64,000 bases of DNA from Mumia xiangluensis (lineage in GTDB: Bacteria > Actinomycetota > Actinomycetes > Propionibacteriales > Nocardioidaceae): NCBI RefSeq assembly GCF_010994095.1, contig NZ_WJYO01000001.1, forward strand, positions 868,001-932,000, given 5' to 3'. Positions 31,150 through 45,397 of this stretch are shown piece by piece; position 1 is the stretch's first letter; each line of letters starts with the position of its first letter. Both the position numbers and the translations under genes were made by a program. The notes beneath the pieces were generated by a model. It ran no database searches and had not been told where the DNA came from. It was given only the letters and a program-made list of their open reading frames with translations.

Positions 31150-31170
31150 TGTCTCGAAGACACCGAGATG

Positions 31171-31209
31171 ACGAAGGCCCGGGACCGCATGCGCGGGCCG
31201 GGCCTTCGT
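31171..31209. terminator. Bidirectional hairpin between GNAT gene and tRNA-Ser(GGA)
   Basis: A perfect 12-bp stem (ACGAAGGCCCGG at 31171-31182 with its complement at 31198-31209) and a 15-nt loop lies 21 bp after the GNAT stop and 4 bp beyond the 3' end of the minus-strand tRNA, so it can end both transcripts. Confidence 0.78.
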
Positions 31210-31213
31210 CGTG

Positions 31214-31301
31214 TGGCGGAGGATAGGGGATTCGAACCCCTGAGAGCTTTCACTCAACACGCTTTCCAAGCGTGCGCACTAGGCCACTATGCGAATCCTC
31301 C
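31214..31301 (-). tRNA. tRNA-Ser(GGA)
   Basis: Minus-strand class II tRNA. Acceptor GGAGGAT (31301-31295) pairs with ATCCTCC (31224-31218), discriminator G, encoded CCA at 31216-31214. The anticodon loop CTTGGAAAG in the stem/loop around 31260-31275 gives anticodon GGA (31267-31265); a long variable arm and the T loop GGTTCGAATCC are present. Reads UCC/UCU. Confidence 0.97.
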
Positions 31302-31386
31302 GCGAGCAGGGTACCCGTTGGAGGGTCGGGCGCAGAAATCCGGGGTGCAGCCCCGGCCCCGACGTCGAACGCTTGCCGTGTCTGCG

Positions 31387-31392
31387 TAGGAT
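31387..31392 (+). promoter_or_regulatory. -10 element of the SRP RNA gene
   Basis: TAGGAT at 31387-31392 lies 7 bp before the first base of the RNA stem at 31400. A -35 at the right distance (around 31364-31369, GTCGAA) is weak. Confidence 0.5.
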
Positions 31393-31399
31393 GGTTCCA

Positions 31400-31485
31400 G
31401 TCCCTCGCGCGGCGGTACCTCGCCCAACTCCCCCAGGGCCGGAAGGCAGCAAGGGTAAGTGAGCTCTATCGGGTGCGCGAGGGAC
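31400..31485 (+). ncRNA. ffs: Small signal recognition particle RNA (4.5S type)
   Basis: Complementary ends GTCCCTCGCGC (31400-31410) and GCGCGAGGGAC (31475-31485) close a long hairpin whose apical part reads CCAGGGCCGGAAGGCAGCAAGGG, here seen as GCCGGAAGGCAGCAAGG around 31437-31455. The GGAA loop and the asymmetric bulge with GCAGCA are the Ffh-binding core of all bacterial SRP RNAs. A TTTT run follows at 31487-31490. The RNA partners Ffh to target nascent membrane proteins. It lies 1.9 kb upstream of dnaX, an arrangement common in bacteria. Confidence 0.95.
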
Positions 31486-31523
31486 CTTTTCATGTCCAGG
31501 GGCGCGCCACCCGCCCAGGCTGG

Positions 31524-32396
31524 TCACCGCGGGACGAGCGGGCGTACGCGTTCGGCGGCGAAGCGCACGAACCCCTCAGGGTCGGGCTCGTCTGCCGTCG
31601 GCTGGAGGACGACCGTGGTCGCCCCGGCCTCGGCGAGACCGCGTACGACGGCTGCGACCTCGTCGGCGTCACCGGCGGCTCCCAGCCCGTCGACGGAGTG
31701 GCCCGAGCTTGCCGCCTCTGCGGCGACGCGCTCCCGAGCACCCGGCCCGGTCGCAGCGAGGACGTAGACGACGACGGGCCACTCACCCGTACGACCCGCC
31801 CGGCGACGGCCCTCGCCGACGAGAGCGAGCGCGTCGCGCAGCCCGTCGGGCGTCACCCGGGCGTCGATCACCGTGCCGTCGCCCACCTCGCCCGTCAGGA
31901 CCAACGACCGCGGGCCCACCGCGCCGGCCAGCACCGGCACCGGCCCGAGGGGCGGCCAGTCGAGCGCGACGTCGTCGAGACGGACGTAGCGGCCGTCGGT
32001 GGAGACGCGCTCGCCTCGGAGCAGCGCCCGCAGCGCGGTCGCGTACTCGTGCAGCAGCGTGAGCGGTGACTCCACCCTCGCCCCGACCTGCGCCATCCAG
32101 TCCTGGACGCCGTGGCCGATGCCGACGGTGACGCGGCCGGGGAACAGGCGATGGAGGGTGGCGACCTCCATCGCCGTGAGCGCGACGTTGCGTAGCGGGA
32201 CCGGGAGCAGCCCGACACCGACGTGGAGCCGCTCGGACCATGCGAGTGCGGCGGAGGACGTGGCGATGCCGCTCTCGAGGAAGCAGTCCTCCCACAGCCA
32301 GAGCTCGTCGAGGCCCGCGCCGTCTGCGGCACGCACGATTGAGCGGAGCCGCTCGGGAGGAAGCTGGGGGCGGAACACGACGCCGAGTGCGGTCAT
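31524..32396 (-). CDS. LLM-class flavin-dependent oxidoreductase (F420-type likely)
   Basis: A 290-residue luciferase-like TIM-barrel protein. ALGVVFRPQLPPERLRSIVRAADGAGLDELWLWEDCF at the start, VGVGLLPVPLRNVALTAMEVATLHRLFPGRVTVGIGHGVQDWM in the middle and PVLAGAVGPRSLVLTGEVGDG later are usual for actinobacterial F420-dependent members. The barrel-top VGIGHG loop binds the deazaflavin. Cofactor and substrate are inferred by family only. ATG at 32396. It is read toward the SRP RNA gene, ending 38 bp beyond it. Confidence 0.82.
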   Translation of the reverse strand: MTALGVVFRPQLPPERLRSIVRAADGAGLDELWLWEDCFLESGIATSSAALAWSERLHVGVGLLPVPLRNVALTAMEVATLHRLFPGRVTVGIGHGVQDWMAQVGARVESPLTLLHEYATALRALLRGERVSTDGRYVRLDDVALDWPPLGPVPVLAGAVGPRSLVLTGEVGDGTVIDARVTPDGLRDALALVGEGRRRAGRTGEWPVVVYVLAATGPGARERVAAEAASSGHSVDGLGAAGDADEVAAVVRGLAEAGATTVVLQPTADEPDPEGFVRFAAERVRPLVPR

Positions 32397-32492
32397 GGGG
32401 CCACTGTGCACCACGACTCGGACGGCACGGCGGCTCGCGTGCGGGCGTGCAAGTCGACCCACGATGATCTGCGGCGGTCTCATCCTGGGGAG

Positions 32493-33083
32493 ATGTTCCT
32501 CGACGAGCCTCCGCACGACGACCAGGTCAAGGCGCTCTACGACGACGACCGCGACAGCGACGGGTACGTCAACAACCTGACCCGCCTCTGGGCATGGCGG
32601 CCCGACATCACGGCCGCGGTCACGGCGGCCCGCGCTGCAGCGGTGACCGACAGCGCACTGACCGACGAGGACCGCGCCGCGCTCGTCGTCGCGACGGCTG
32701 CTGCCCGTGGCGACTCGTACTGTGCGCTGGCGTGGGGACGCCGCCTCGCGACCCTCACCGACGCCGACACGGCGGCGAACCTGCTGCGCGGCGAGGTCGG
32801 CGGCGTCGAGCCGAGGCTTGCGGCGCTCGCCACCTGGGCGACGCAGGTCGTCCGCGACCCGAACGCCACCACGCCCGAGGACGTCGCCTGTCTGCGGGAG
32901 GTGGGTCTGGGGGACCGCGAGATCTTCGAGGCGACGATCTTCGTCTCCCTCCGCCTCGCCTTCTCGACGGTCAACGACGCGCTGGGCGCCGAACCCGACC
33001 GGCAGCTGGTCGAGACCGTCCCCGCCGAGGTGGCAGCGGCGGTCACCTTCGGGCGTACGGCTTCTGGCGTCTTCTCGCCATGA
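32493..33083 (+). CDS. Carboxymuconolactone decarboxylase/AhpD-like protein
   Basis: A 196-residue all-helical protein of the CMD/AhpD fold. LTDEDRAALVVATAAARGDSYCALAWGRRLA is the core helix pair; true AhpD enzymes have a CxxC here, whereas this protein has a single Cys in DSYCALAWG, so peroxidase activity by the classical route is doubtful. YVNNLTRLWAWRPDI and DREIFEATIFVSLRLAFSTVNDALG flank it. The ATG at 32493 has GGGGAG upstream. Divergent from the LLM oxidoreductase gene. Confidence 0.75.
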   Translation: MFLDEPPHDDQVKALYDDDRDSDGYVNNLTRLWAWRPDITAAVTAARAAAVTDSALTDEDRAALVVATAAARGDSYCALAWGRRLATLTDADTAANLLRGEVGGVEPRLAALATWATQVVRDPNATTPEDVACLREVGLGDREIFEATIFVSLRLAFSTVNDALGAEPDRQLVETVPAEVAAAVTFGRTASGVFSP

Positions 33084-33403
33084 CCCAGTGCTTGTTCCAG
33101 GGGTCGTCTGCCTGTGGGCAAACTGTGGATGAAGGCATCGGTTCTGTGGACGGTTCTCCACTGCCTGTGCATGAACCTCTGGATAGTCGGAAAAGTCCGG
33201 CGAGACCCTTGCATGCCCTCGGGCGAGCAGGGTAGGACAGTGCAGGTGCGCCTCGGGCGCCATGCGAAGAAGCAAACCCCCGGAAGGCCCCGCGACGCCC
33301 GCGTGTCGTGGGGCCTTGCGCATCGCAGGGGTGTCGCGCTCGAACCCCACAGCCGATGCCTGCGGGACTGCAGGACGTCAGGGACGATCGTTAGGGTTGA
33401 TGC
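33084..33403. other. 320-bp intergenic region before dnaX with hairpin and DnaA-box-like sites
   Basis: No gene is visible. The left part has three TGTGG-type 9-mers resembling degenerate DnaA boxes (33113-33121, 33124-33132, 33145-33153). The middle has a strong hairpin at 33284-33317. The dnaX promoter must lie in the last 85 bp. Confidence 0.45.
33284..33317. terminator. Hairpin between the CMD gene and dnaX
   Basis: Arms AAGGCCCCGCGAC (33284-33296) and GTCGTGGGGCCTT (33305-33317) form a 13-bp stem with one mismatch or wobble and an 8-nt loop. It is 200 bp past the CMD stop and 87 bp before dnaX, so it may be a terminator or a leader hairpin. Confidence 0.6.
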
Positions 33404-35437
33404 GTGGACGAACCTATGGCCCTGTACCGGCGCTACCGCCCGGAGACGTTCGCCGAGGTGATCGGCCAGTCGCACGTGACCGATCCGTTGCGGCATGCGC
33501 TCGCCAACAACCGCGTCAACCACGCCTATCTCTTCTCCGGCCCTCGCGGCTGCGGCAAGACGACGAGCGCCCGCATCCTCGCGCGAGCGCTCAACTGCGA
33601 GAAGGCCCCCGTCGCCGATCCGTGCGGCGAGTGCCAGAGCTGCCTCGACCTCGCCCGCGGCGGACCCGGCAGCATCGACGTGATCGAGATCGACGCGGCG
33701 AGCCACGGCGGTGTCGACGACGCGCGTGACCTCCGCGAGCGGGCGTTCTTCGCGCCGGTCAACAGCCGCTACAAGGTCTACATCATCGACGAGGCCCACA
33801 TGGTCTCGAGCCAGGGCTTCAACGCACTGCTCAAGCTCGTCGAGGAGCCCCCGCCGCACCTCAAGTTCATCTTCGCGACGACCGAGCCCGAGAAGGTCAT
33901 CGGCACGATCCGGTCGCGGACCCACCACTACCCGTTCCGGCTGGTCCCTCCGAAGACGCTCACCGCGTACCTCGAGGAGCTCGGACGTACGGAGGGGGTG
34001 CCGCTGGAGGCGACCGCGCTGCCGCTGGTGGTGCGGGCCGGCGGCGGCTCGGTCCGAGACACGCTCAGCGTCCTCGACCAGCTCATCGCCGGTGCCGATG
34101 ACGCCGGGGTGACGTACGACCTCGCCGCGGCGCTGCTCGGCTACACCCCTGACTCGCTGCTCGACGAGGTCATCGACGCGTTCGCTGCGGGCGACGGCGG
34201 GGCCGTGTTCGCGGCGGTCGACAAGGTCGTCGAGACCGGGCAGGACCCGCGTCGCTTCGCCGAGGACCTGCTCCAGCGCCTGCGGGACCTCGTCATCGTC
34301 GCCAACGTGCCCGACGCGATCGGCATGGGGCTGATCGACATCGCAGGCGATCGTGCCGAGCGCCTCGAGAACCAAGCCGCGCGCTTCGGTCGCGCCGACC
34401 TCACCCGGGCCGCCGACGTCGTCAGCGCGGGTCTCACCGAGCTGCGCGGCGCGACCGCTCCGCGTCTGCTCCTCGAGCTCATTTGCGCGCGCATCCTGCT
34501 GCCGGGCGCCGACGCGACCCCCGACGGCATCCAGGCACGTCTCGACCGCATCGAGCGGCGACTCACGATGGTCGGCGATGCGGCCCCCGCCCCGGCCGCC
34601 CCGCCGGTCGAGGCTGCCCCCTCTCCGCCGGTCGAGGCGCGAAGCGATCGAGACCAGTCCGCCCCCCCGGTCGAGGCTGCCCCCTCTCCGCCGGTCGAAG
34701 CTGCCCCCGCCCCGCCGGTCGAGGCTGCCCCCTCTCCGCCGGTCGAGGCTGCCCCCTCTCCGCCGGTCGAGGCGCGAAGCGATCGAGACCAGCCCGCCCC
34801 GCCCACCGGAGTCCCCGGTGTCGCCGACGTCCGCCGCCTGTGGCCGGAGATCCTCGACAAGGTCCGGGTGATCCGACGCTTCACGTGGGTGATGCTGAGC
34901 CAGAACGCCCAGGTCCACTCCCTCGAGGGCACGACGCTCACGATCGGCCTCGTGAACGCCGGTGCCCGGGACTCGTTCGCGCGCAGCGGGTCGGACGCGA
35001 TCCTGGTCCAGGCCCTGACCGACGTGCTCGGCGGCACCTGGCGCGTCGAGGCGGTCGTGGACCCGAGCGCGGGCAACGCGCCGGCCCCCACGCGTGCGCC
35101 CGCTCCGCAGCGTCCGGCGGAGCCCGCACCCCCCGAGACCCCGCGAGCCAACGCGCCGGCCGATCGTGACCAGGCTCCGCCGACGCAGGCGGACGATGCT
35201 CAGCAGACGCCGCCCACCCAGGCTGCTGCCCCGCCCGGACGCGAGCGGGCGAGCGCGGACGCGATCGCGGCTGCGCGCGCGAGCATCCGCGACGACGCCG
35301 CGCGGCCGGAGGCGTACGACCCGGACCACCACGCCCGGGCCGACGACCCGGCGATGGACAACGACGGTCTCAGCCATGAGGAGCTGCTCAGCCGGACTCT
35401 CGGCGCGCAGGTCATCAGCGAGATCCCGCACGACTGA
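33404..35437 (+). CDS. dnaX: DNA polymerase III subunits gamma/tau
   Basis: A 677-residue clamp-loader ATPase. LYRRYRPETFAEVIGQ at the start, Walker A GPRGCGKTTSARILARAL, a zinc site (NCEKAPVADPCGECQSC), Walker B IIDEAHMVS and the sensor FATTEPEKVIGTIRSR are all present. Residues ~400-465 are a Pro/Ala/Glu-rich linker made of PPVEAAPS-type repeats and two copies of PPVEARSDRDQ; a conserved C-terminal block follows (VRRLWPEILDKVRVIRRFTWVMLS). GTG at 33404 used; ATG at 33416 (MALYRRYR) is equally plausible. No slippery A tract for a gamma frameshift is seen. Immediately followed by a dispersed repeat. Confidence 0.94.
   Translation: MDEPMALYRRYRPETFAEVIGQSHVTDPLRHALANNRVNHAYLFSGPRGCGKTTSARILARALNCEKAPVADPCGECQSCLDLARGGPGSIDVIEIDAASHGGVDDARDLRERAFFAPVNSRYKVYIIDEAHMVSSQGFNALLKLVEEPPPHLKFIFATTEPEKVIGTIRSRTHHYPFRLVPPKTLTAYLEELGRTEGVPLEATALPLVVRAGGGSVRDTLSVLDQLIAGADDAGVTYDLAAALLGYTPDSLLDEVIDAFAAGDGGAVFAAVDKVVETGQDPRRFAEDLLQRLRDLVIVANVPDAIGMGLIDIAGDRAERLENQAARFGRADLTRAADVVSAGLTELRGATAPRLLLELICARILLPGADATPDGIQARLDRIERRLTMVGDAAPAPAAPPVEAAPSPPVEARSDRDQSAPPVEAAPSPPVEAAPAPPVEAAPSPPVEAAPSPPVEARSDRDQPAPPTGVPGVADVRRLWPEILDKVRVIRRFTWVMLSQNAQVHSLEGTTLTIGLVNAGARDSFARSGSDAILVQALTDVLGGTWRVEAVVDPSAGNAPAPTRAPAPQRPAEPAPPETPRANAPADRDQAPPTQADDAQQTPPTQAAAPPGRERASADAIAAARASIRDDAARPEAYDPDHHARADDPAMDNDGLSHEELLSRTLGAQVISEIPHD
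34603..34800 (+). repeat. In-frame repeat expansion in the dnaX linker
   Basis: About 24-bp units (CCGCCGGTCGAGGCTGCCCC and variants, 8 residues each) are repeated at least six times. Two 28-bp copies of GGTCGAGGCGCGAAGCGATC plus GAGACCAG lie at 34630-34657 and 34765-34792, exactly 135 bp apart. The reverse of that segment, GGTCTCGATCGCTTCGCGCC, resembles intergenic 35491-35512, so coding sequence and dispersed repeats share it. Confidence 0.75.
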
Positions 35438-35439
35438 GA

Positions 35440-35470
35440 TTTCGACTCGCTGCGCTCGCTCAACCAGCGG
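35440..35470 (+). repeat. 31-bp dispersed repeat, copy 1 (after dnaX)
   Basis: Begins TTTCGACTCGCTGCGCTCGC and ends CAACCAGCGG, two bases after the dnaX stop. It matches the copy at 35937-35967 at 30 of 31 positions in the same orientation. It runs into an uninterrupted run of eleven G at 35469-35479, then a partial second repeat motif (GGTCTCGATCCCTTCGCGCC) at 35491-35510. Confidence 0.85.
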
Positions 35471-35561
35471 GGGGGGGGGCTGCGTGGTCTCGATCCCTTC
35501 GCGCCTCAGCCGACAAAGCGCGAGCGTGGGCTGGCGGGTGTTCGCCAACCTGTCGCCGTGA

Positions 35562-35933
35562 TGTCGTGTTCTCGCCACCTCGCGCAACTGGTTCCTCGCC
35601 GTCTACAAGGGCGCCAAGCCGTCGTACCCGAACTACTCGTTGTTCATCGTCGACGGCGACCGCGCGCCGTACGAGCAGGTGGTCCGCGGGCAGGCCGCTC
35701 CGGAGCTCGGTGACCACCTGTCGTTGTTGCCACAGGGCCAGTACGACCCCGCGTCGTCCACGTTCGGCTGGACGTTCGACGCGTCGTACGGGCTCGTCTC
35801 GGTCGGGAACGGCTACTTCTACGGCGCGTCCGGTGGCCGTGTCGTCGAGGACGGCGTGACCAAGCAGACGGGGGCGCTCGACCTCTACCGCTGGACCGGC
35901 GCCGTACCGACGCCGTTCGAGAAGGTGAGATAG
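35562..35933 (+). pseudogene. Orphan C-terminal coding fragment between direct repeats
   Basis: The frame is open from 35562 to the TAG at 35931-35933 and has clear coding bias: RNWFLAVYKGAKPSYPNYS, LFIVDGDRAPYEQVVRGQAA, FGWTFDASYGLVSVGNGYFYGASG, ending ALDLYRWTGAVPTPFEKVR. There is no start codon with a ribosome site near its beginning and no upstream domain, so it looks like the surviving 3' end of a gene of about 120 codons or more. A short stretch in another frame just upstream (GWRVFANLSP, ending 35561) may be the preceding part displaced by a frameshift. I do not recognise the family. Bounded by 31-bp direct repeats. Confidence 0.5.
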
Positions 35934-35936
35934 GGG

Positions 35937-35967
35937 TTTCGACTCGCTTCGCTCGCTCAACCAGCGG
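35937..35967 (+). repeat. 31-bp dispersed repeat, copy 2
   Basis: Same orientation as 35440-35470, one mismatch, starting three bases after the fragment's stop codon. Followed by a degenerate doublet CCAGCGGAGCGCT at 35959-35971 and 35984-35996. Confidence 0.85.
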
Positions 35968-36104
35968 AGCGCTGCTGGACCAACCAGCGGAGCGCTCTGG
36001 ACCCACCGGCGGAAGTCCTCCTGGACCGCGGCCCCACGCACCGGCGTGCTTCCGTACGCTGTGGGCGTGGAGGTCGCGGGCAGGCGGCCGCGAGAGGAGC
36101 ACCG

Positions 36105-37109
36105 ATGGGCAGCTGGCAGGCGGACGTTCTCGGCGACGGCTACGAGCAGCGCCGGATCGATCTGGGCGTCGACCCGGACGGCGAGGGTGCGATCGACGCC
36201 ACCCTCGTACGCCGCGTACCTCGTGACGGCGAGCAGACCTCGGGTGCGGTGCTCTACGTCCACGGGTTCACCGACTACTTCTTCCAGACCGCGCTCGCTG
36301 ACTTCTTCGCCGAGCGAGGGTTCGCGTTCTACGCGCTCGACCTGCGAAAGTGCGGCCGGTCGCTGCAGCCGGGTCACACGGCGCACTACGTGTCCGACCT
36401 CGCGATGTACGACGCCGAGCTCGAGCAGGCGCTCGCCATCGTGCGTGAGGAGACGGGCTCCGACGTGCTGCTGGCGGCGCACTCCACCGGCGGTCTGATC
36501 CTGCCGCTGTGGCTCGACCGTCGCCGCAAGGCGAGCGGCGTGCGCGGCGACGGCGTCGCGGGACTCGTGCTCAACAGCCCGTGGTTCGACCTGCAGGGCC
36601 CCGCACTCGGGCGTTCGCTCGGCACCGAGGTCATCAAGCTCGTCGGCAGGGTGAGGCCGACGAACGTCATCAAGCTGCCGCCGGGTGACTCGTACGGTCA
36701 GAGCCTCGCGCACGCCGGCGAGTGGGAGTACGACGTCGCCTGGAAGCCGCTCGCCGGATTCCCGGTGACGTACGGGTGGATGCGCGCGATCCGGATCGGT
36801 CACGCGAAGCTTCACCGCGGCCTCGACATCGGCGTGCCCGCGCTGGTGCTGCGGTCGACCCGCACCCACTTCGCTCCCGCGTACTCCGAGAAGACCGACA
36901 CCGCCGACGCGGTGCTCGACGTCCGTCAGATCGCCCGGTGGTGCGGCTGCCTCGGCAACGACACCCGCGTCGTACCGATCGAAGGCGCGCGGCACGACGT
37001 CTTCCTCTCGCTTGCAGAGCCACGTCGTCGTGCGTACGCCGCGGTGGACACCTGGCTCCGGCACGACGCCGCCCTGCTCGCGCCGGTGCAGGAGCACGCG
37101 GCGGAATGA
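36105..37109 (+). CDS. Alpha/beta hydrolase (serine lysophospholipase/monoacylglycerol lipase-like)
   Basis: A 334-residue serine hydrolase. The oxyanion turn is VLYVHGFTDYFFQ, the strand FYALDLRKCGRSLQPG resembles monoglyceride lipases, and the nucleophile elbow is AAHSTGG with Ser127 (G-x-S-x-G replaced by H-S-T-G-G). The late His is in GARHDVFLS and an Asp precedes it (EKTDTADAVLD region). ATG preceded by GAGAGGAGC. Its TGA overlaps the ATG of the pab fusion (ATGA), so both genes are translationally coupled, although no biochemical link to folate is evident. Confidence 0.8.
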   Translation: MGSWQADVLGDGYEQRRIDLGVDPDGEGAIDATLVRRVPRDGEQTSGAVLYVHGFTDYFFQTALADFFAERGFAFYALDLRKCGRSLQPGHTAHYVSDLAMYDAELEQALAIVREETGSDVLLAAHSTGGLILPLWLDRRRKASGVRGDGVAGLVLNSPWFDLQGPALGRSLGTEVIKLVGRVRPTNVIKLPPGDSYGQSLAHAGEWEYDVAWKPLAGFPVTYGWMRAIRIGHAKLHRGLDIGVPALVLRSTRTHFAPAYSEKTDTADAVLDVRQIARWCGCLGNDTRVVPIEGARHDVFLSLAEPRRRAYAAVDTWLRHDAALLAPVQEHAAE

Positions 37110-39826
37110 TCCCGCCGACCGACCGGCGCCGGGTCGGTCCGTACGATCTCGCGACGCTGCTGCGGCGGTTGCGCGGGCGCGATCGGCTCGTGGCGCTGGT
37201 CGGTGACTGGGATGGCGGCCGCGACCTCGTCGCGTACGACCCGGTGCGGGTGCTCGGCACCGACGAGGACCCGTTCGACCTGGGCACAGGCCCGGCGGGA
37301 GCGCGCGAGGCGGGCACCTGGATCGGCTGGTGGGGCTACCAGCTCGGGAGCCGGCTCGAGGAGGTCGGAGCGTCGCCCCCACGGCCCGAGCGGCTTCCTG
37401 ACGCCGAACTCGCCCTGTACGAGACGGTCCTGCGTCGTGTCGACGGTGCGTGGTGGTTCGAGTCGGTGGCAGGGCCTGAGGTGGCCGAGGTCCACTGGCA
37501 GCGCCTGCGCGACCTGCTCGACGGCGACGATCCTCAGCCCACGCCGTACGCGTTGGAGCCGTTCGCGTCCGTTCCCGACCTCGCGTCGCACCGCGAGGCC
37601 GTCCGGCGCGCGGTCGCGCACATCCACGCCGGGGACATCTTCCAAGCGAACATCTGCCTGCGGCTCCAGTCGCGGATCGAGGGCGCCGATCGTGCGGGAG
37701 CTGCGCTGGAGATGTTCCTCGCCGGGGTCACGGCCCTGGCACCGGCGTACGCCGCGTACATCGCGGGGCGCGACGGCACGATCGTCAGCCTGTCCCCGGA
37801 GCTCTACCTGCGGCGGACCGGACGACACGTCGTGTCATCGCCGATCAAGGGCACCGCACCGGCTGACACCGACCCCGCGGACCTGGCGGCGTCGGTGAAG
37901 AACCGCGCCGAGAACGTGATGATCGTGGACCTCGTCCGCAACGACCTCGGCCGGGTCGCGGAGACCGGCAGCGTCCACGTCACCGCGACCGCAGCGCCCA
38001 GGCCGCACACCGGGGTGTGGCACCTCGTGTCCGACGTCGAGGCGACGCTGGTGCCGGATGCGACAGACGCCGACCTGCTGCGCGCGTCGTTCCCGCCGGG
38101 CTCGGTCACCGGAGCGCCGAAGGTGCGGGCGATGCAGGTGATCGGCGAGCTGGAGACGACCGGCCGTGAGGTCTACACGGGCGCCATCGGCCACGTTGGG
38201 CCGGGCGGGCTCGAGGCGAGCGTCGTCATCCGCACGTTCGAGATCCGCGGCGACCGTGTGTGGCTCGGCGTCGGTGGAGGCGTCGTCGCGGACTCGGATC
38301 CCGACGACGAGCTTCGTGAGTGCTTCACGAAGGCGTCGCCGCTGCTACGTGCTGTGGGAGCGGGGTTGGGGGGTCTCGATACGCCCTCGCCTAGCGGCTC
38401 GGGCTACTCGACCACCGAGGGTGGCGGCGGCTCGGGCTACTCGACCACCGAGGGTGGCGACGGCGGAACCCGCTGGTCGAGTAGGCCGAGGAACGAGGCC
38501 GTATCGAGACCCGACCCCGCCGCCGGCATCTTCGACACGCTCCTCGTGCGGGCCGGCCGCGCCGTCGACCTCGACGGGCACGCCGGCCGCTTCGCCGCGG
38601 CGGTCGCGGCGACGTACGCGGTGCCGCTCGACGCGGCGACGCTGGCCGACGACCTGCGTCACCGTGCGGCCACCCTCGACGGCGACCACCGACTGCGGGT
38701 GTCCTACGACCCGGCCGCCGCCGACGTCGACGTGCGAGTCACGCCCGCGGGAGCGATCCCGACGGCGCCGTGGGTGCTCCACCCGGCCGTCGTCCCGGGA
38801 GGCTTGGGCGAGGTGAAGTGGAACGACCGCACGCTGCTCGCCGCGCTACCTGGTGCGCCTTGGGGCGACACCCACGACCCGCTGCTCGTCGACGAGGACG
38901 GCACGGTTCTCGAGACAGGGCGGGGCAACCTGTTTGCGGTACTCGACGACGGCATCCACACACCCGTGCTCGACGGCCGGATCTTGCCCGGCGTCACGCG
39001 GGCCGTCGTGCTCGCCCGGCTGCGGGCGCACGACGTGCCCGTGTTCGAGCGCCGGCTCCGCGTGGATGAGCTCGCGAGCGCCGGCGAGCTGTTCGTGACG
39101 AATGCGATCGGCCGCGTGCGCCCGGTCGCGGAGGTCACGGGCGTCGTACGGCTCGAGCCCGGCCCGACGACGCAGTGGATCCGAAGACTCGACGTCACGC
39201 CCGGGCAGTCCGGCCGCGGGCGGGACCAGTCGCCGCGATCGGTCGGCGCATCCGTCCTGCTGATCGACAACTACGACTCGTTCGTGCACAACCTCGCGCA
39301 GTACGTCCGGGAGCTCGGCGCCGAGGCAACGGTGGTCCGCAATGACGCCGTGACCGCGGACGACCTCCTGGAGCTGCGCCGTACGGGTGCCTTCACGCAC
39401 CTCGTCATCTCGCCCGGCCCCGGCGCGCCGTCGGAGGCGGGGGTCAGTGTCGAAGCCGTGCGTGCTCTCGGTCCGACCACGCCGATCCTGGGCGTCTGCC
39501 TCGGGCACCAGGCGATCGGCGAGGCGTACGGCGCCGCGGTCGCGCGCGCCCCACGCCCCGTGCACGGGGTGCCGTCGCTCGTGCACCACGACGGCGCGGG
39601 CGTGTACGCGGGGATGGACGGCCCGCTGGTCGCTGCGCGCTACCACTCGCTGATCGTGCGCGACCTCCCCGAGGAGCTCGTCGCGACCGCGTGGAACGGG
39701 GAGGGCGTGCTGATGGGCGTCCGCCATCGCGAGCACCCCGTCGAGGGTGTCCAGATCCACCCCGAGTCGATCCTCACGCCCCGCGGCCACGAGCTGCTCG
39801 CGAACTTCCTGCGCGGCCGCTCGTGA
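37106..39826 (+). CDS. pabBCA: Trifunctional p-aminobenzoate synthase: PabB-PabC-PabA fusion
   Basis: One uninterrupted 906-codon frame encodes all steps from chorismate to p-aminobenzoate for folate. Residues 1-415: aminodeoxychorismate synthase component I; Lys248 in SSPIKGTAP marks PabB rather than anthranilate synthase, with VKNRAENVMIVDLVRNDLGRV and GSVTGAPKVRAM. Residues 415-470: low-complexity linker. Residues 474-700: aminodeoxychorismate lyase, PLP-dependent class IV, with Lys571 in EVKWNDRTLL, VLETGRGNLFAV and ELFVTNAIGRVRPV. Residues 717-906: glutamine amidotransferase component II starting VLLIDNYDSFVHNL, with Cys798 in GVCLGHQAIG and His885/Glu887 in HPESILTPRG. There is no start codon near either junction, so separate genes are unlikely. 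Coupled to the hydrolase gene by ATGA. Confidence 0.92.
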   Translation: MIPPTDRRRVGPYDLATLLRRLRGRDRLVALVGDWDGGRDLVAYDPVRVLGTDEDPFDLGTGPAGAREAGTWIGWWGYQLGSRLEEVGASPPRPERLPDAELALYETVLRRVDGAWWFESVAGPEVAEVHWQRLRDLLDGDDPQPTPYALEPFASVPDLASHREAVRRAVAHIHAGDIFQANICLRLQSRIEGADRAGAALEMFLAGVTALAPAYAAYIAGRDGTIVSLSPELYLRRTGRHVVSSPIKGTAPADTDPADLAASVKNRAENVMIVDLVRNDLGRVAETGSVHVTATAAPRPHTGVWHLVSDVEATLVPDATDADLLRASFPPGSVTGAPKVRAMQVIGELETTGREVYTGAIGHVGPGGLEASVVIRTFEIRGDRVWLGVGGGVVADSDPDDELRECFTKASPLLRAVGAGLGGLDTPSPSGSGYSTTEGGGGSGYSTTEGGDGGTRWSSRPRNEAVSRPDPAAGIFDTLLVRAGRAVDLDGHAGRFAAAVAATYAVPLDAATLADDLRHRAATLDGDHRLRVSYDPAAADVDVRVTPAGAIPTAPWVLHPAVVPGGLGEVKWNDRTLLAALPGAPWGDTHDPLLVDEDGTVLETGRGNLFAVLDDGIHTPVLDGRILPGVTRAVVLARLRAHDVPVFERRLRVDELASAGELFVTNAIGRVRPVAEVTGVVRLEPGPTTQWIRRLDVTPGQSGRGRDQSPRSVGASVLLIDNYDSFVHNLAQYVRELGAEATVVRNDAVTADDLLELRRTGAFTHLVISPGPGAPSEAGVSVEAVRALGPTTPILGVCLGHQAIGEAYGAAVARAPRPVHGVPSLVHHDGAGVYAGMDGPLVAARYHSLIVRDLPEELVATAWNGEGVLMGVRHREHPVEGVQIHPESILTPRGHELLANFLRGRS
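38372..38511 (+). repeat. 140-bp palindromic repeat element read in frame inside pabBCA
   Basis: Left end GGTCTCGATACGCCCTCGCC...CTACTCGACCA (38372-38414) and right end TGGTCGAGTAG...CGTATCGAGACC (38474-38511) are inverted. Between them is a tandem 33-bp duplication (38396-38428 and 38429-38461) encoding GSGYSTTEGGG/GSGYSTTEGGD. The left arm matches 36 of 39 bases of the inverse of 4527-4565. It forms the whole PabB/PabC linker. Confidence 0.85.
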
Positions 39827-39833
39827 CAAGCGG

Positions 39834-40331
39834 CTAGGACGAACGCGTGCGGGAGCGGCGGCGTACGAGGGCGATGGCGGTCGCGACCAGCACGATCGTC
39901 AGCGCTGCGGCGACGAGCCCCCACCCCGTCGTGAGCCCGGCGCCGACGGCCGCGTAGAACGCCGTCATCCCGACCGTCGTCCACACGAGCGCCCACGCCG
40001 CGCAGCCCGGCAGCATCGCCAACAGGTAGTGGAGGAACGGCATCCGGATCACGCCCGCGCCGGCGTTCACGACGGTCTGGAGCCCGACGGTCAGGAACGA
40101 GACCGGGACGGCGATCACGCCCCACCGGCGGAGCATGTCGATGCCGCGTTGCGTCGAGTCGCCCGACAGCCACGCGTGGACGCGCGCACGCCAGCCGCCG
40201 GTCGGGTGGGTGTGCGAGAGGACCTGGCTGGTGACGACGCGCGCGATCCAGTACGTCGCCTGGGCCCGCAGGAACACGACGACGAAGAAGAACAGCCACA
40301 CCTCGAGGGCCGGTCCGTCGGGTCGCTCCAC
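39834..40331 (-). CDS. Small DedA/VTT-like membrane protein
   Basis: A 165-residue protein with about four hydrophobic helices. VWLFFFVVVFLRAQATYWIARVV, then a soluble stretch, then GVIAVPVSFLTVGLQTVVNAGAGVIRMPFLHYLLAMLPGCAAWALVWTTVGM matches the VTT/DedA core (the F-x-x-G loop, N-x-x-A-G and M-P-x-x-x-Y), which occurs in lipid scramblase/transport proteins. It is shorter than normal DedA (about 200) and the first helix pair is divergent. Converges on the pab gene with 7 bp between. Confidence 0.65.
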   Translation of the reverse strand: MERPDGPALEVWLFFFVVVFLRAQATYWIARVVTSQVLSHTHPTGGWRARVHAWLSGDSTQRGIDMLRRWGVIAVPVSFLTVGLQTVVNAGAGVIRMPFLHYLLAMLPGCAAWALVWTTVGMTAFYAAVGAGLTTGWGLVAAALTIVLVATAIALVRRRSRTRSS

Positions 40332-40374
40332 AGCAGAAGCCTAGGTTGCTGGCCGCAGTCGCCGGAGGCCGCGG

Positions 40375-41745
40375 TCACCCCGCGAACAGCAGGAAGAGAC
40401 CGAGGAACGTGTAGCCGACCATCACGAGCATCAGAGCGAGCTGTCCCGTGAGGTGGTGGGCGCGGGGCAGCAGCCTGATGCAACGGTCGTGCGCGGCGAT
40501 GACGCCCAGCACGTGGCCGGTCAGGACGAGCCCGACTTTGAGGACGGCGAGCAGGTGCGGGTGCTCGGAGAGCCAGTACGACGGTGCGAGGCCGCCGATG
40601 CCGAGCGGGTCCCAGCCGCGGTCGAGCGGGTCGGCGAGCGCGATGAGGGTGCGCTGGCCCTTCTCGACGAGGTAGGTCAGGTAGTGCGCCCCGACGTAGC
40701 CGACCACGATCGGGACCAACGAATGCGCGAGCTCTGACGGCAGCTCGCGCCGCTGCACGGAGGTGACGCCGCCGGTCGCACGCGCGGCGAGCACGAACAC
40801 GGCACCGACCGCCCCGATCGCGGCCAGGAGGCCGAGCGACCTGTACGCGACGGCGAGCACCGGCGATCCGGCGTACCAGGTCTGAACCTCCGTCAACCAC
40901 CACGACGTGCCGGTCGCGGAGTCGAACGCGGTCGAGCCGAGCAGGACGGCGACGACCGCCACGATCCCGTGGTCGACCGGCAGCCCGGCGAGGTTGGAGA
41001 GCGGGTTGCGCGCGACGACGCGGCGGGCCTGCGGGGTGCTGCTCGCGGGATCGCGGCGCCCGAACGGCGAGAGTGCTGCCACGAACGCCGCGTACACGTC
41101 GAACGGGTCGGCCCGCTCGAACCAGCGGCGCCCGAAGGCGAGCCCGCCGAGCACACCGGCGACGACGTAACCGACCAGCCAGACCCGGATCGTCGTCAGC
41201 GCACCGGGATCGGGCGAGGCGAGCTCGGTCCACACGAACGCGAGCAGCCCGAGCGCCGCGGGCCAGTAGCCGAGCCGCTCGGGGTAGGTCCACACGCCGG
41301 TCGCGGGATCGCGCCGGAGCGCCCGGCACGCTGCATGGTGCAGGGCGCGGACGGGTGAGACGTACGCCCAGACGTGGCCGCACACGAGCGAGAGCGGGAC
41401 GAGGCCGACCCAGAGCAGCACGTAGAACGCGCCGGGTGCGCCGTTGGTGGGACCGGGCTCACCGCCGAACGCCGCGAGCGCGACCCACCCGGTGATCGCC
41501 ACTCCGAGCACGCCCAGGGCGGTGTGGGTCGCTGCGCCGTCGACGGCGCGGGTGACCCACGGAGGCAGGGCGGCGCCGGGCGACCTCGGATCGAGCTTCG
41601 GGCGCCGCCAGGCGAGCGCGAGGACCGCGAACGAGATCGCGAGCGCCCAGGTGGCGCCGAGCATCGCGTACTCGAGCGGCACCGGGAGGTCGGTCGACCC
41701 GCCGATCCCGTGGGCGACGACCACGTCGTTGCGAGAAGGAGTCAC
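40375..41745 (-). CDS. Uncharacterised polytopic membrane protein of the cupredoxin-linked cluster
   Basis: A 456-residue protein with about 10-12 hydrophobic helices. It begins VVVAHGIGGSTDLPVPLEYAMLGATWALAISFAVLALAW; His residues recur in or near helices (VAHGIGG, HTALG, CGHVWAY, ALHHAAC, HAHSLV... the region SELAHSLVPIVVGYVGAHYLTYLVEKGQ, EHPHLLAVLKVGLVLTGHVLGVIAAHDR). Homologues are, to my recollection, sometimes labelled 'fenitrothion hydrolase' without evidence I know of. GTG at 41745 overlaps the cupredoxin stop (GTGA). Histidine-rich helices would suit heme or metal binding. Last gene of a four-gene operon. Confidence 0.6.
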   Translation of the reverse strand: MTPSRNDVVVAHGIGGSTDLPVPLEYAMLGATWALAISFAVLALAWRRPKLDPRSPGAALPPWVTRAVDGAATHTALGVLGVAITGWVALAAFGGEPGPTNGAPGAFYVLLWVGLVPLSLVCGHVWAYVSPVRALHHAACRALRRDPATGVWTYPERLGYWPAALGLLAFVWTELASPDPGALTTIRVWLVGYVVAGVLGGLAFGRRWFERADPFDVYAAFVAALSPFGRRDPASSTPQARRVVARNPLSNLAGLPVDHGIVAVVAVLLGSTAFDSATGTSWWLTEVQTWYAGSPVLAVAYRSLGLLAAIGAVGAVFVLAARATGGVTSVQRRELPSELAHSLVPIVVGYVGAHYLTYLVEKGQRTLIALADPLDRGWDPLGIGGLAPSYWLSEHPHLLAVLKVGLVLTGHVLGVIAAHDRCIRLLPRAHHLTGQLALMLVMVGYTFLGLFLLFAG

Positions 41746-42098
41746 GGGCTGACGTCGATGGTCGCGATCGTCCCTCCGACGTGGTGGGACTCGAGCGAGA
41801 CGCTCCCGGGGACGTCGACGGTGAACTCGAACTGGTGCGTCCCGGGAGTTACGGCGAACGTCTCCTCTGGCTCGGCGTGGAGGTGGAGCTCGTCCTCGGT
41901 GTCGGAGGTGACACGGAGGATGATCGGCTGGCCGACCGTCGCTGTGCGGGCCTCGCCGAGCGGGGTGACCGCGCCGTCCTCGATCGTCACCGTGAGGGAG
42001 ACGGGCGTGTCCTCGTCCACGACGGGGTCGCTCGCGCAACCTCCGAGCGCGAGCAGGCCGGCGACGGCGAGGACGGGCAGCGTACGGGGAAGGGTCAT
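41742..42098 (-). CDS. Cupredoxin-like lipoprotein lacking the copper Cys
   Basis: A 118-residue lipoprotein: MTLPRTLPVLAVAGLLALGGC with lipobox LGGC (Cys21), then a single beta-barrel domain (SLTVTIEDGAVTPLGEARTATVGQPIILRV, ELHLHAEPEETFAVTPGTHQFEFTVDVPGSVSLESHHVGGTIATIDV). This has the spacing of the cupredoxin fold, but the Cys expected before the final H-x-x-G is replaced (SLESHHVGG). Two His pairs (HLH and HH) remain, so metal binding is possible but a blue copper site is not. Overlaps neighbours at both ends by 4 bp. Confidence 0.72.
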   Translation of the reverse strand: MTLPRTLPVLAVAGLLALGGCASDPVVDEDTPVSLTVTIEDGAVTPLGEARTATVGQPIILRVTSDTEDELHLHAEPEETFAVTPGTHQFEFTVDVPGSVSLESHHVGGTIATIDVSP

Positions 42099-42277
42099 CG
42101 GTCGAGCTCCTGGACGGTCGGGGCAGCGGTCTCCTGCGCGGCGGTCTCGCGTGCCTCGGCGATGCGGTCGCGTCGCGCGATGACGAGGACGACCACCGTG
42201 ATCGCGATCGCGGGGACGAACGCCGGGACGGCGAGCAGCAACGGGTGGTGCGCGAGGAGGACGGTGTCGGGGGTCAT
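42095..42277 (-). CDS. Small single-helix membrane protein of the cupredoxin-linked cluster
   Basis: A 60-residue protein: a short outside segment with a His pair (VLLAHHPLLLAVPAF), one membrane helix (VPAIAITVVVLVIARR) and a charged cytoplasmic tail (DRIAEARETAAQETAAPTVQELDR). Its ATG is 2 bp from the upstream stop and its stop overlaps the lipoprotein ATG, which supports it as a real gene despite its size. Likely a subunit of a membrane complex made by this operon. Function unknown. Confidence 0.68.
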   Translation of the reverse strand: MTPDTVLLAHHPLLLAVPAFVPAIAITVVVLVIARRDRIAEARETAAQETAAPTVQELDR

Positions 42278-42279
42278 GG

Positions 42280-44109
42280 TCAGACGAGCGCGGGTGGGCG
42301 GTCGTCGGCGTGCCGGTCGGCCGTCGTGGGCCGCGGGGTCGCGCGCGCCACGCGGGCCGCGCCCCAGGCGAGCGCCCAGAGCAGCAGCAGCGAGCAGATC
42401 GCGACGACGGTGCAGGCGGCGTTCCACAGCCACACGGGGTGGTCGGCGTTCTTCTCGCGTTGCAGGATCTCTGTCTCGGGGACGAACGCGCGGGTGAAGC
42501 TCGCCGGCGCGGCAAGCTCCTCGGCGTCGATCGCCTCGTCCGCAGGCAGCCAGATCGGGACGGCGGCGAGGATGCGGTCGTCCGAGACGCGGACGAGCGT
42601 CTTCCAGGTGCCGTGAACGGGGATCGGACGCGTCGTCTCCCAGACCCCCGGGGACGTCTCTCGGAGCTGGTCGACGACGACGCCGTCGCCCTGCCACGCG
42701 GTGATCTGGACCCAGGTCGGGTCGTCGCTGGGCAGGGTGGCCGGGTCGAAGGTGACGCGAGCGTCGACCGTACGCGTCGCCGGGTCGGAGTCGACGTCGG
42801 TGAGCTCCACGGTCGCGGTGGCGTCGGGGACGGTGGCGTACAGGCCGTTGCCGAGCGACACCGCCAGGGCGACGATGCCAGCCACGACGATCGCGCGGCA
42901 CACAGCCTTGCCGGGGATGTCGCCGGTCGTCAGTGCCGTGCCGAGCAGCGCTCCCGCCATGCCGGCGAGAACCCCTACCGGCACGGACATCAGCAGGCCC
43001 TCGGCCCACATGTCGCTGGTCCAGGGGAGAATGAACGCCGCCTGGACCCACAGTCCCTCCAGCACGAGGCCGAGCGTCGAGATCCCGAGCCCTGCGATCG
43101 CGCCGTACGCGAGCCGGCGCCGGTAGAGCGGTGCCGCCAGCGCCAGCAGCTCCACAACGACGGCGGTGCCGAGGTAGGCCGGGAAGACGTTGTATGCCTC
43201 GCCGAGGACCGGGCCGACGAACACAGCCGTGCCGATCCGGACGACCAGGTAGAACAGCACGGCGAGGATCGCGCCGAACGCGCCGAGCACGACTCGTGCG
43301 GCGACCAGCGCGAGGCCGGCGGCGGCCGCGATCATCATCGGGCGCAGCGGCATCCGGAACTGCTGGATGCCGAAGTCGTACTCGACCTGGAACACCGACA
43401 GGCCGACCAGGAGGCCGCCGAATGCGGCGGTGTAGGAGACGCGGACGCGCAGGTCGCGCAGCGACGACGCCGTCTTGCCACGTGCGAGGTCGCCCTCGCG
43501 GAGCAGCAGCAGGATGCCGATGAGCGACAGGCCCGCGCCGCCGATGAGCATGATGTGGGTCGGGCCCCACAGGGTCACGTCCTGGCCGAAGATGCGGTGC
43601 CAGACGTCATCGAGCGGGAAGCCGATCAGCGCGTAGAGTCCGGCGCCCGCGACGAGCAGGCCACCGACCGGGACGTGCCAGGCGCGGGTGATCTTGACGG
43701 CAGCGGGCCCGGGCACCTCGTCCAGCGGCAGGACCATCGCGGTGGCGCCGGCGATGAACGTGAGGAAGAGGCCGACGAGGATGAGGTAGTGCGCGGGGTT
43801 CGCGAGCGGCCCCTCGTCGCGTCCCACCCCGGCGTGCAGGCTGACGTCCCAGATGAACCCGAGGAACGCGGTCACGAGGGCGACTGCGAGCAACGCACCC
43901 GGCACGGTCACCCAGCCCGGGCGGCCGATCTTGGACTCGGACCACTCGCTCAGCCGGTGCAGCCACGTGATGCGGCGGGTGCGGTGCGCCCACGCGACCC
44001 ACACGAGAGCGGCGAAGACCACCATCGACGCCACGCTGACGCCGGCGACCTGGTCCAGGGCTGCTCCGCCGGCGGGGCGTGGCTCGGCGGCGAGAGGTGT
44101 GGAAAGCAT
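42280..44109 (-). CDS. Uncharacterised polytopic membrane protein with C-terminal extracellular domain
   Basis: A 609-residue protein. About 10-12 hydrophobic helices fill residues 25-420 (for example TVPGALLAVALVTAFLGFIW, ILVGLFLTFIAGATAMVLPL, THIMLIGGAGLSLIGILLLL). Histidines recur near helix ends (DVSLHAGVG, PAHYLILV, AWHVPVGG, GPTHIMLIGG). A beta domain follows (VELTDVDSDPATRTVDARVTFDPATLP... VWETTRPIPVHGTWKTLVRV) with FixH/YtkA-like character, then a last helix and basic tail. ATG at 44109 chosen because the palindrome at 44120-44138 then lies just upstream; an ATG at 44145 would put that palindrome inside the gene. First gene of the operon. Confidence 0.62.
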   Translation of the reverse strand: MLSTPLAAEPRPAGGAALDQVAGVSVASMVVFAALVWVAWAHRTRRITWLHRLSEWSESKIGRPGWVTVPGALLAVALVTAFLGFIWDVSLHAGVGRDEGPLANPAHYLILVGLFLTFIAGATAMVLPLDEVPGPAAVKITRAWHVPVGGLLVAGAGLYALIGFPLDDVWHRIFGQDVTLWGPTHIMLIGGAGLSLIGILLLLREGDLARGKTASSLRDLRVRVSYTAAFGGLLVGLSVFQVEYDFGIQQFRMPLRPMMIAAAAGLALVAARVVLGAFGAILAVLFYLVVRIGTAVFVGPVLGEAYNVFPAYLGTAVVVELLALAAPLYRRRLAYGAIAGLGISTLGLVLEGLWVQAAFILPWTSDMWAEGLLMSVPVGVLAGMAGALLGTALTTGDIPGKAVCRAIVVAGIVALAVSLGNGLYATVPDATATVELTDVDSDPATRTVDARVTFDPATLPSDDPTWVQITAWQGDGVVVDQLRETSPGVWETTRPIPVHGTWKTLVRVSDDRILAAVPIWLPADEAIDAEELAAPASFTRAFVPETEILQREKNADHPVWLWNAACTVVAICSLLLLWALAWGAARVARATPRPTTADRHADDRPPALV

Positions 44110-44119
44110 GTCCGCCAGC

Positions 44120-44138
44120 GTGACATCGGCAATGTCAC
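44120..44138. promoter_or_regulatory. Palindromic operator before the membrane/cupredoxin operon
   Basis: GTGACAT-CGGCA-ATGTCAC is a perfect 7-5-7 inverted repeat whose near edge is 11 bp from the chosen ATG at 44109. A TTGACA hexamer on the minus strand (44145-44140) abuts it and may be the -35 element. The divergent two-component operon starts at 44234. The binding regulator is not evident in the window. Confidence 0.6.
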
Positions 44139-44233
44139 ATGTCAACGGTCATATAGCGAGCGTCGCTCGCAGGAGACCTGACCGTCGCTCCACGGCGACC
44201 GCGCCGTCGCCCTCCCGGCCCTAGCATCATGGT

Positions 44234-45397
44234 GTGAGGACGCCGATCATGAGCCCGCGCAGGACGGACGTGCTGCTGTGCGTCGGCGTCGCGGTCGTGC
44301 TCGCCGTGGTCGCCACCTCCCACGAGGGGCGCGGCGGCGACGTCAACCCGCTGGCGTACCTGTGGGCTGTCGGGCTCGGGCTGCTCATGCTCATCCGGCG
44401 AAGCCACCCGGTGCTGGTGCTCGTGCTCACGACGCTCGGCTTCTTCAGCTACTACGCGGCAGGGTTCCCCGCGATCGGTGTCGCGGTGCCGATCGCCGCG
44501 GCGCTCTACTCGGCCGCGGAGATGGGGCACCTGCGTTCGGCCGTCGTCACGGGGGCACTCACGCTCGGTCTGTCCACGGTGTACCGGGTGGCGGTCGGGC
44601 AGAACGTGTCGATGGTGGTCGGGTACGAGTTCGTCACGCACGCGGCGCTCATCGCCGCCGCGATCGCGCTCGGCAACAGCGTCCGGGCCGGGAGGCGGCT
44701 GCGGCGACGCACCGAGCAGGTCTCGCGCCTGCTGACCCGCCAGAGGGAGCTGGACCAGGTCGTGGAGGTGCGGGAGGAACGGATGCGGCTCGCGCGAGAG
44801 CTCCACGACTCGATCGGGCACTCGCTGTCGGTCGCCTCGCTCTACTCCGACGTCGCCCGCGAGGCGCGCGACGACGCTGCGCGCGACGACGCGCAGGAGC
44901 TCGTACGGTCGTCGATCACGGAGGCGTCGTCCCACCTGCGCCGCACGGTCGCGGTGCTGCGGGGCAGCGGGCAGTTCGACTCGGACGCCGGACTCGACCA
45001 GGTGGACCGCCTGCGGGTGGCGCCGACCGCCGCGGGGTACGCCGTCGACGTGCGGGTGGATCCGGTCGACGTCGCACCCGAGGTCGGAGCCGCGGCGTTC
45101 CGGCTCGTCCAGGAGGCGATCACGAACACCCTCAGGCACTCGAACGGTCGCAGCATCAGCGTGCGGGTGGGCCTGCGGGAGCCGGGGCTTCTCGGCGTCC
45201 GCGTCGTCGACGACGGTACGGCCGTCGTACCCCCACAGATCCGGCCGGGGCACGGCCTGAGCGGCATGCGCGAGCGTGTCGCCGACCTGGGCGGCACCCT
45301 CGAGGTCGACGCCGACGCGTGCGGTTGGGTCGTGGAGGCGTCGATCCCGACGATGCCGGCGACGAGTGGGGACGGCACATCAGGGGACACCGCATGA
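44234..45397 (+). CDS. Sensor histidine kinase (HisKA_3 family)
   Basis: A 387-residue membrane kinase. Residues 12-150 have about five hydrophobic helices (VLLCVGVAVVLAVVAT through FVTHAALIAAAIALGN), then a coiled linker (RRRTEQVSRLLTRQRELDQVVEVREER), the dimerisation box RMRLARELHDSIGHSL with phospho-acceptor His about residue 191, and ATPase motifs (FRLVQEAITNTLRHS, VVDDGTAV where D-x-G-x-G is imperfect, GHGLSGMRERV). The imperfect G1 box may reduce ATP binding. GTG at 44234 or ATG at 44249 are both possible. Overlaps its regulator gene by 4 bp. Confidence 0.83.
   Translation: MRTPIMSPRRTDVLLCVGVAVVLAVVATSHEGRGGDVNPLAYLWAVGLGLLMLIRRSHPVLVLVLTTLGFFSYYAAGFPAIGVAVPIAAALYSAAEMGHLRSAVVTGALTLGLSTVYRVAVGQNVSMVVGYEFVTHAALIAAAIALGNSVRAGRRLRRRTEQVSRLLTRQRELDQVVEVREERMRLARELHDSIGHSLSVASLYSDVAREARDDAARDDAQELVRSSITEASSHLRRTVAVLRGSGQFDSDAGLDQVDRLRVAPTAAGYAVDVRVDPVDVAPEVGAAAFRLVQEAITNTLRHSNGRSISVRVGLREPGLLGVRVVDDGTAVVPPQIRPGHGLSGMRERVADLGGTLEVDADACGWVVEASIPTMPATSGDGTSGDTA

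Follow-up and report, generated by a model that had tools for sequence, protein, structure and literature searches.

A predicted trifunctional PABA synthase in Mumia xiangluensis with a linker apparently derived from a dispersed palindromic repeat

We analyzed a window of 64,000 nucleotides from the actinomycete Mumia xiangluensis (Nocardioidaceae; contig NZ_WJYO01000001.1, positions 868,001 to 932,000) that carries a gene, pabBCA (37106-39826, forward strand), predicted to join the three enzymes of p-aminobenzoate (PABA) synthesis in the order PabB-PabC-PabA. The reading that we favor, with a probability of about 0.83, is that pabBCA encodes one working trifunctional PABA synthase and that the linker between its PabB and PabC parts came from a dispersed palindromic repeat gained after the fusion. 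Judged by its sequence, the enzyme itself is very probably functional in all three parts. In the proposed route, the C-terminal PabA domain would free ammonia from glutamine, the N-terminal PabB domain would use this ammonia to convert chorismate to aminodeoxychorismate, from which the PabC domain in the middle would remove pyruvate to give PABA for folate. The three activities are inferred from homology and from a tested enzyme, DIP1790 of Corynebacterium diphtheriae.

One frame encodes PabB, PabC and PabA parts

When translated, 37106-39826 is a single open frame of 906 residues with one stop codon. Along this chain Pfam places Chorismate_bind at residues 161-409 (E 3.1e-68), Aminotran_4 at 474-677 (E 1.6e-25) and GATase at 718-902 (E 3.7e-50). 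Both results agree with an earlier reading of this DNA made from its letters alone (the sequence-only reading), which had proposed a 906-codon frame with this domain order. Based on Pfam and NCBIfam matches, we assign residues 18-418 (37157-38359) to aminodeoxychorismate synthase component I, PabB, with catalytic Lys248 at 37847-37849, and residues 471-690 (38516-39175) to a class IV aminotransferase fold that is predicted to be an aminodeoxychorismate lyase, PabC, with Lys571 at 38816-38818. Residues 715-903 (39248-39814) make up the class I glutamine amidotransferase, PabA, with Cys798, His885 and Glu887 encoded at 39497, 39758 and 39764; all three parts lie on the forward strand. We take Lys571 to be the pyridoxal phosphate lysine of the PabC part and Cys798, His885 and Glu887 to be the amidotransferase triad. 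These five residues, which the sequence-only reading had singled out as active-site positions, stand where it placed them and are the same in all 13 fusions aligned, as are W572, D574 and R575 beside K571 in the PabC part.

Lys248 falls within a PIKGT motif and aligns with Lys274 of Escherichia coli PabB (1k0e), in an alignment that covers residues 44-415 with PIKGT in register. Among NCBIfam models, aminodeoxychorismate synthase component I fits the chain best, over the first part; the best models and structures for this part are PabB, not anthranilate or ADIC synthase, and so do not indicate a PhzE or a fused anthranilate synthase. The PabA part clears the cut-off of the TrpG/PabA subfamily (trpG_papA, 189.4 bits versus 121.05), and the PabC part is the most diverged of the three. 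When the window's gene was compared with those of five congeners (five pairs), the ratio of nonsynonymous to synonymous substitution rates (dN/dS) was 0.15-0.31 for PabB, 0.31-0.47 for PabC and 0.15-0.29 for PabA. Purifying selection acts on all three domains.

A likely sole source of PABA

The genome, which is 98.6% complete, holds three Chorismate_bind proteins: pabBCA, one of the isochorismate-synthase type, and a 661-residue fusion of a chorismate-binding domain with a GATase. A Chorismate_bind search found no second PabB in the genome. There are 11 GATase-family matches; at E 1e-5, a PabA-domain query matched, besides pabBCA, only the 661-residue fusion and a 541-residue frame that we presume to be GuaA-like. 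The sequence-only reading had suggested looking for a separate pabA or trpG, and the PabA-domain and GATase-family searches found neither as a stand-alone gene in this genome. Since these searches gave neither a second PabB nor a stand-alone PabA or TrpG, the pabBCA chain is likely the genome's only PABA source.

The 661-residue fusion (L003; L155:9038-11023, equal to G000:C1:289037-291022) matches fused anthranilate synthase models, far under their cut-offs. It is the only candidate anthranilate synthase found, and no separate TrpE or TrpG was seen in the genome. Nine open reading frames (ORFs) neighboring it were scanned, and none matched a trp family.

The fusion is common in Nocardioidaceae

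A full-length fusion is present in all six genomes of the genus, this one included, with identities of 65-100%. Across 149 sampled Nocardioidaceae genomes, at least 47 carry the three domains in one frame: 29 have one match that spans all three, and 18 have two matches that share one open frame. Profiles confirmed the B-C-A order in one frame for 38 of the 47, and the other nine are counted from shared frame length only. In the same sample 15 genomes lacked a match, and 87 of the 134 with matches were not counted as fusions. These 87 include near-fusions in which the frame is broken at a joint (G013 and G125), cut by a contig end (G123) or devoid of PabC (G032). Thus, the three-domain PABA fusion is common in this family. 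It extends to a second family of the same order, in which profiles found B-C-A in one frame in two genomes (L238 and L239).

Two-domain forms also occur: G032 (L241, G032:C20) has PabB-PabA in one frame without PabC, and G350 (L240, G350:C34) has PabB-PabC in one frame without PabA. Outside the order, in a sample of 394 genomes from across the class, the matches that reach E 1e-70 are to PabB; in one of these genomes (G700) the PabB match extends into the PabC region across a stop. For the family that holds G588 (121 genomes, not each gone through), none of the matches listed spans both PabB and PabA.

A palindromic repeat in the PabB-PabC linker

The DNA of the PabB-PabC linker (38360-38523, assigned to neither strand) is a nested palindrome that contains two exact 33-nucleotide tandem copies, a feature that the sequence-only reading did not mention. 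As single-stranded DNA, 38366-38520 folds far more stably than its shuffled versions (z -6.2, 0 of 200 shuffles). Copy 1 of a dispersed repeat lies at 38372-38413 on the forward strand and encodes GLDTPSPSGSGYST (model match 38367-38418, E 3.3e-15); copy 2, inverted to it, lies at 38475-38511 on the reverse strand (model match 38470-38516, E 1.2e-13). The 33-nucleotide tandem copies (38394-38459, forward strand) each carry the repeat's right half and are read as GSGYSTTEGGG units. In this species the inverted repeat pair and the two tandem copies encode most of the linker. In an AlphaFold model residues 425-465 have a predicted local distance difference test score below 50, and the joint is predicted to be a disordered Gly/Ser linker. 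The repeat would be tolerated for two reasons: it has no stop codon in the frame in which it is read, and it falls between folded domains.

Counting the two in the window, the strict repeat pattern has 38 copies in the genome; a reversed-pattern control has none. Units are 37-44 nucleotides long and expand as tandem half-units. Copy 1 is identical in 42 of 42 nucleotides to an outside copy (G000:C1:789159-789200), which itself adjoins a half-unit repeat. Inverted pairs are found in the pabBCA linker and at C2:677665/677707 and C6:283834/283879. We built a covariance model from the 21 copies that lie outside pabBCA, Mfd and AtuA. At each of two stem pairs, eight of the 21 have compensatory changes on both sides, and the model recovers both linker copies at the E-values given above although they were left out of it. 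No Rfam family covers the repeat at gathering scores within 30000-46000.

The same linker in three congeners also matches the model (E 2e-8 in L011, 2.8e-7 in L012 and 0.0034 in L009). The linker of L009, from G002, shares 32 identical nucleotides with a cluster of repeats at C1:789000-789400 in the window's genome; in the same comparison L011 shares 15, L012 11, and L010 and L013 9 each. Congener linkers read the repeat on other strands and in other frames, and they differ in repeat type, orientation and length. In 24 fusion loci of other genera (L014-L037), by contrast, no model match with E <1 lies in the linker. The matches below this threshold sit elsewhere in those loci (three in L028 at 813-961, one in L037 at 205-251 and one in L032 at 4709-4726), while those in or overlapping the linkers of L018, L021, L028 and L016 are at noise level, with E 2.2 to 9.6. 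Because other genera carry the fusion without the repeat in its linker, we rejected the idea that the repeat created the fusion. Read most simply, the repeat entered the linker of a fusion that already existed.

In G002 the second, PabC-PabA linker contains a different inverted repeat with 16-nucleotide arms (L009:3526-3541 and 3567-3582).

In-frame copies elsewhere in the genome

Among the 30 of 38 strict copies that were fetched, five were called coding: two in pabBCA and one each in Mfd, an AtuA-type protein and a 212-residue frame without a Pfam match. The Mfd copy lies in frame between the UvrB-interaction domain (187-271) and the CarD/RID domain (614-676), and the AtuA-type copy lies in frame between AtuA (49-476) and the AtuA ferredoxin-like domain (575-674). 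These two, the copy in the 212-residue frame and pabBCA copy 1 are read as GLDTPSP.GSGYST followed by GSGYSTSGG-like units. A translated repeat search gave 13 matches in this genome, several of them in long frames. At two further loci (L184 and L157) a copy near the start of a frame that also holds other coding sequence is read in other frames and may precede the true start.

The window genome's Mfd has 65 residues more than that of congener G003, whose site is nearly empty. Shorter repeat-like inserts are present in Mfd of G002 and G001 (model E 2.7e-5 and 2.3e-4) and a doubtful one in G004 (E 0.087), and Mfd of G005 has no repeat-model match. Within the window, two repeat variants lie on the reverse strand, in frame inside dnaX (33404-35437). 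The variant at 34601-34660 (model E 0.0021) shares 27 identical nucleotides with the C1:789000-789400 cluster, and the other is at 34760-34795 (model E 0.002). Protein-coding palindromes are recognized by in-frame copies and by sites without the element; here the repeat is in frame in pabBCA, Mfd, the AtuA-type protein and, as a variant, dnaX, and the Mfd site of G003 is nearly empty. On its other strand the repeat has the layout GGTCGAGTAG-stem-CGTATCGAGACC. Three of its four GTAG letters are unpaired in the consensus fold and the fourth is predicted to be paired.

Several side observations concern the same repeats. The Mfd locus (L183/L186, G000:C3:246536-249298) has four tandem units, and its insert length varies among the six genomes of the genus (L192-L196); the AtuA-type copy (L158, G000:C1:326826-326867) has about five. 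In dnaX, in-frame 24-nucleotide tandem repeats (PPVEAAPSPPVEARSDRDQ) at 34596-34803 contain the palindrome variants. A further copy on the reverse strand at 4522-4573 (model E 3.5e-10) adjoins about five 26-nucleotide tandem half-copies (4426-4550). The array and repeat at 4426-4573 supply, through GAGTAG, the stop codon of the ORF at 3295-4431, as GTAG-tagged palindromes do according to the available part of PMC3733652.

Alternative explanations

Several observations weigh against pabBCA being one working trifunctional enzyme. The PabB part scores slightly below its NCBIfam cut-off (PRK05877, 376.8 versus 383), and the diverged PabC part scores far below that of the aminodeoxychorismate lyase model (PRK06092, 69.7 bits versus 260), with class IV aminotransferases of several names as its top PDB matches. 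An AlphaFold model built from a 13-sequence input leaves PabA undocked on PabB when compared with PhzE (root-mean-square deviation 29-32 Å over both domains); at this input depth AlphaFold and Foldseek neither support nor disprove docking of the two within one chain. Just before the PabB-PabC linker stand an in-frame GTG (codon 417) and, following a GGGAGCGGGG stretch, an in-frame TTG (codon 421); GTG codons 664 and 671 precede the PabC-PabA joint, and all of these could permit internal starts. The sequence-only claim that neither junction has a start codon thus holds for the repeat-built linker, which contains neither ATG nor any other start-like codon, but not for the stretches in front of the two joints. 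The low PabC scores would also fit a chain that is an aminodeoxychorismate synthase only, in which the central PabC-like domain is structural, altered or weak while PABA is finished by a separate lyase. The genome has a second class IV aminotransferase (L005) that could serve as this lyase, the PabC part has the highest dN/dS of the three, and G032 does without PabC in its frame. We consider such a division of labor unlikely, since K571, W572, D574 and R575 are unchanged in every aligned fusion, the dN/dS of PabC is well below 1, and, judged by E-value, this part fits the aminodeoxychorismate lyase model of NCBIfam best, albeit under its cut-off. The sequence-only reading had allowed that a sequencing error might have made the fusion, and the frames broken at a linker in G125 and G013 indicate that breaks occur or are miscalled. 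However, one frame is kept in six of six members of the genus, in two genomes of the second family and in at least 47 of the 149 sampled from Nocardioidaceae; this conservation refutes the idea that the fusion is a recent accident or an error of sequencing or assembly, to which we attach a negligible chance.

The origin of the linker has its own difficulties. For congener L010 the repeat model has no match in the linker and for L013 only one at E 0.36, and the model's E-values are optimistic, because 54 of 85 matches fall between E 1 and 10, where about nine are expected. Moreover, a search of the genome for a RAYT-type (REP-associated tyrosine transposase; REP, repetitive extragenic palindrome) Y1 transposase gave no match to PF01797, a family that matched in 5 of 14 control genomes. 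The surplus of weak matches, and the linkers of other genera, which are likewise variable and of similar length with no repeat at E <1, could suggest that the Gly/Ser linker is ordinary low-complexity coding sequence whose likeness to the repeats is convergence in a G+C-rich genome. This explanation is contradicted by the 42 of 42 identity to an outside copy, by 38 strict copies against none for the reversed pattern, by the E-values of both linker copies from a model that excludes them and by the paired stem changes among copies, and we give it very little credence. Alternatively, the palindrome may be kept for a job at the nucleic-acid level, for example as an mRNA hairpin that slows ribosomes between the folding of PabB and PabC, with the linker as a by-product. 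The highly stable fold of the linker, the paired changes among dispersed copies and the inverted repeat in the second linker of G002 are in line with such a role. Strong folding is, however, expected without selection for the two arms of a recent inverted pair, and congener linkers vary in repeat type, orientation and length, down to one (L010) without a detectable repeat; we therefore view a nucleic-acid-level function as distinctly improbable.

Comparison with known fusions and repeats

Trifunctional PABA synthesis from one chain is a known kind, because DIP1790 was published in 2007 (de Crecy-Lagard et al.). As described in the available part of PMC1971073, this PabAa-PabAb-PabAc triple fusion of C. 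diphtheriae was predicted and tested: it complemented an E. coli pabA pabB mutant, and PABA was made without added PabC. Similar to DIP1790, pabBCA joins PabB, PabC and PabA in one chain; in pabBCA this chain is uninterrupted and the catalytic residues of all three enzymes are present. The hyphens in that name may reflect how the DIP1790 domains are ordered, or may not. The paper knew of one such genome, whereas the pabBCA-type fusion is common in a family; a repeat-built linker is not among the features reported in its available part, whereas pabBCA has one. In the open-access literature, the DIP1790 locus tag led only to the 2007 paper and no description of the PabB-PabC-PabA order was found; the available parts of PMC7552465 and PMC6451014 mention PabA-PabB fusions and no three-part PABA fusion. 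The sequence-only reading had called the fusion unusual and had asked whether its order was already described. The first view is not supported, given at least 47 of 149 family genomes and the 2007 publication; on the second, the order indeed appears undescribed in that literature, but a trifunctional fusion has been on record since 2007 (PMC1971073, available part).

The same reading had regarded a C-terminal amidotransferase as unusual, but for this enzyme superfamily it is not new. As in pabBCA, the chorismate-binding domain comes first and the GATase last in PhzE (3r74/3r75) and TrpE-clade3 (TIGR01815); 3r74/3r75 align across both domains, and TIGR01815 matches both in that order in a fused protein. 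Their product differs, and the PabB part of pabBCA has PIKGT with the PabB catalytic lysine. PhzE and TrpE-clade3 anthranilate synthases presumably have no PabC domain. In the bifunctional PabA-PabB protein of Streptomyces venezuelae (8hx6), an aminodeoxychorismate synthase, as in pabBCA, amidotransferase and PabB share one chain; unlike in pabBCA, the amidotransferase is N-terminal (match 19-200 of 702) and no PabC part matched.

The repeat resembles the GTAG-tagged REPs described in 2013 (Di Nocera et al.). According to the available part of PMC3733652, these are dispersed short palindromes, often inverted dimers beside GTAG and sometimes intragenic; many intragenic copies lie in replication and repair genes, and they were suggested to be neutral in flexible linkers. 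The paper ties GTAG repeats to the RAYT family, transposases that are usually present but that some species lack, and assigns the repeats to Proteobacteria, Cyanobacteria, Chloroflexi and the PVC group; the words "actinobacteria", "Streptomyces" and "Mycobacterium" are absent from its available text. Like these elements, the Mumia repeat has dispersed copies, complementary stem changes and inverted dimers. Unlike them, it resides in an actinomycete whose genome yielded no RAYT, and its stem-side flanks are also invariant, mostly as a consequence of the search pattern. Because no Y1 transposase was found despite the GGTCGAGTAG-stem-CGTATCGAGACC layout, we label it GTAG-REP-like only.

Protein-coding palindromes are known in Rickettsia and Wolbachia, and Rickettsia palindromic elements insert in frame into conserved proteins (Ogata et al. 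2000, 2002, via the available part of PMC2229807). In that account the Rickettsia elements span 105-146 bp, whereas the units of the pabBCA type are 37-44 nucleotides long, occur in an actinomycete and grow as tandem half-units. The likeness is one of kind and not of homology. The linker of pabBCA, built from such a repeat, adds a new case to a known, little-studied phenomenon, for which the open-access literature yielded no report from Actinomycetota.

We tentatively propose a broader interpretation, which may well prove wrong: in this actinomycete genus a GTAG-REP-like palindrome could be a recurrent source of in-frame linkers, landing and expanding at domain joints (PABA synthase, Mfd, AtuA-type protein and DnaX). 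In the clearest cases of the window's genome it would be read in one frame that gives a flexible Gly/Ser/Thr peptide, and in congeners in other frames, such that turnover of the repeat might rapidly alter interdomain spacing even though no transposase is obvious. The pabBCA linker itself shows that small dispersed palindromes can turn into protein-coding sequence in Actinomycetota, a phylum not named for GTAG repeats in the available part of PMC3733652, and sister species offer filled and nearly empty repeat sites for comparison. The fusion itself is a compact natural candidate for one-protein PABA production. For questions of tethering, and of the channeling that the sequence-only reading proposed, it provides a clean system, as relatives hold PabB-PabC, PabB-PabA and three-domain forms.

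Neighboring features

Upstream of pabBCA lies an alpha/beta-hydrolase-like gene (36105-37109, forward strand) with a VHGFTDYF motif. Its stop codon overlaps the pabBCA ATG by 4 nucleotides, as ATGA. The name is presumed from this motif, which is found upstream of pabBCA in six of six genomes of the genus. The window also contains a gene for the bacterial small signal recognition particle RNA (31396-31492) and two tRNA-Ser genes (31214-31301 and 24155-24242).

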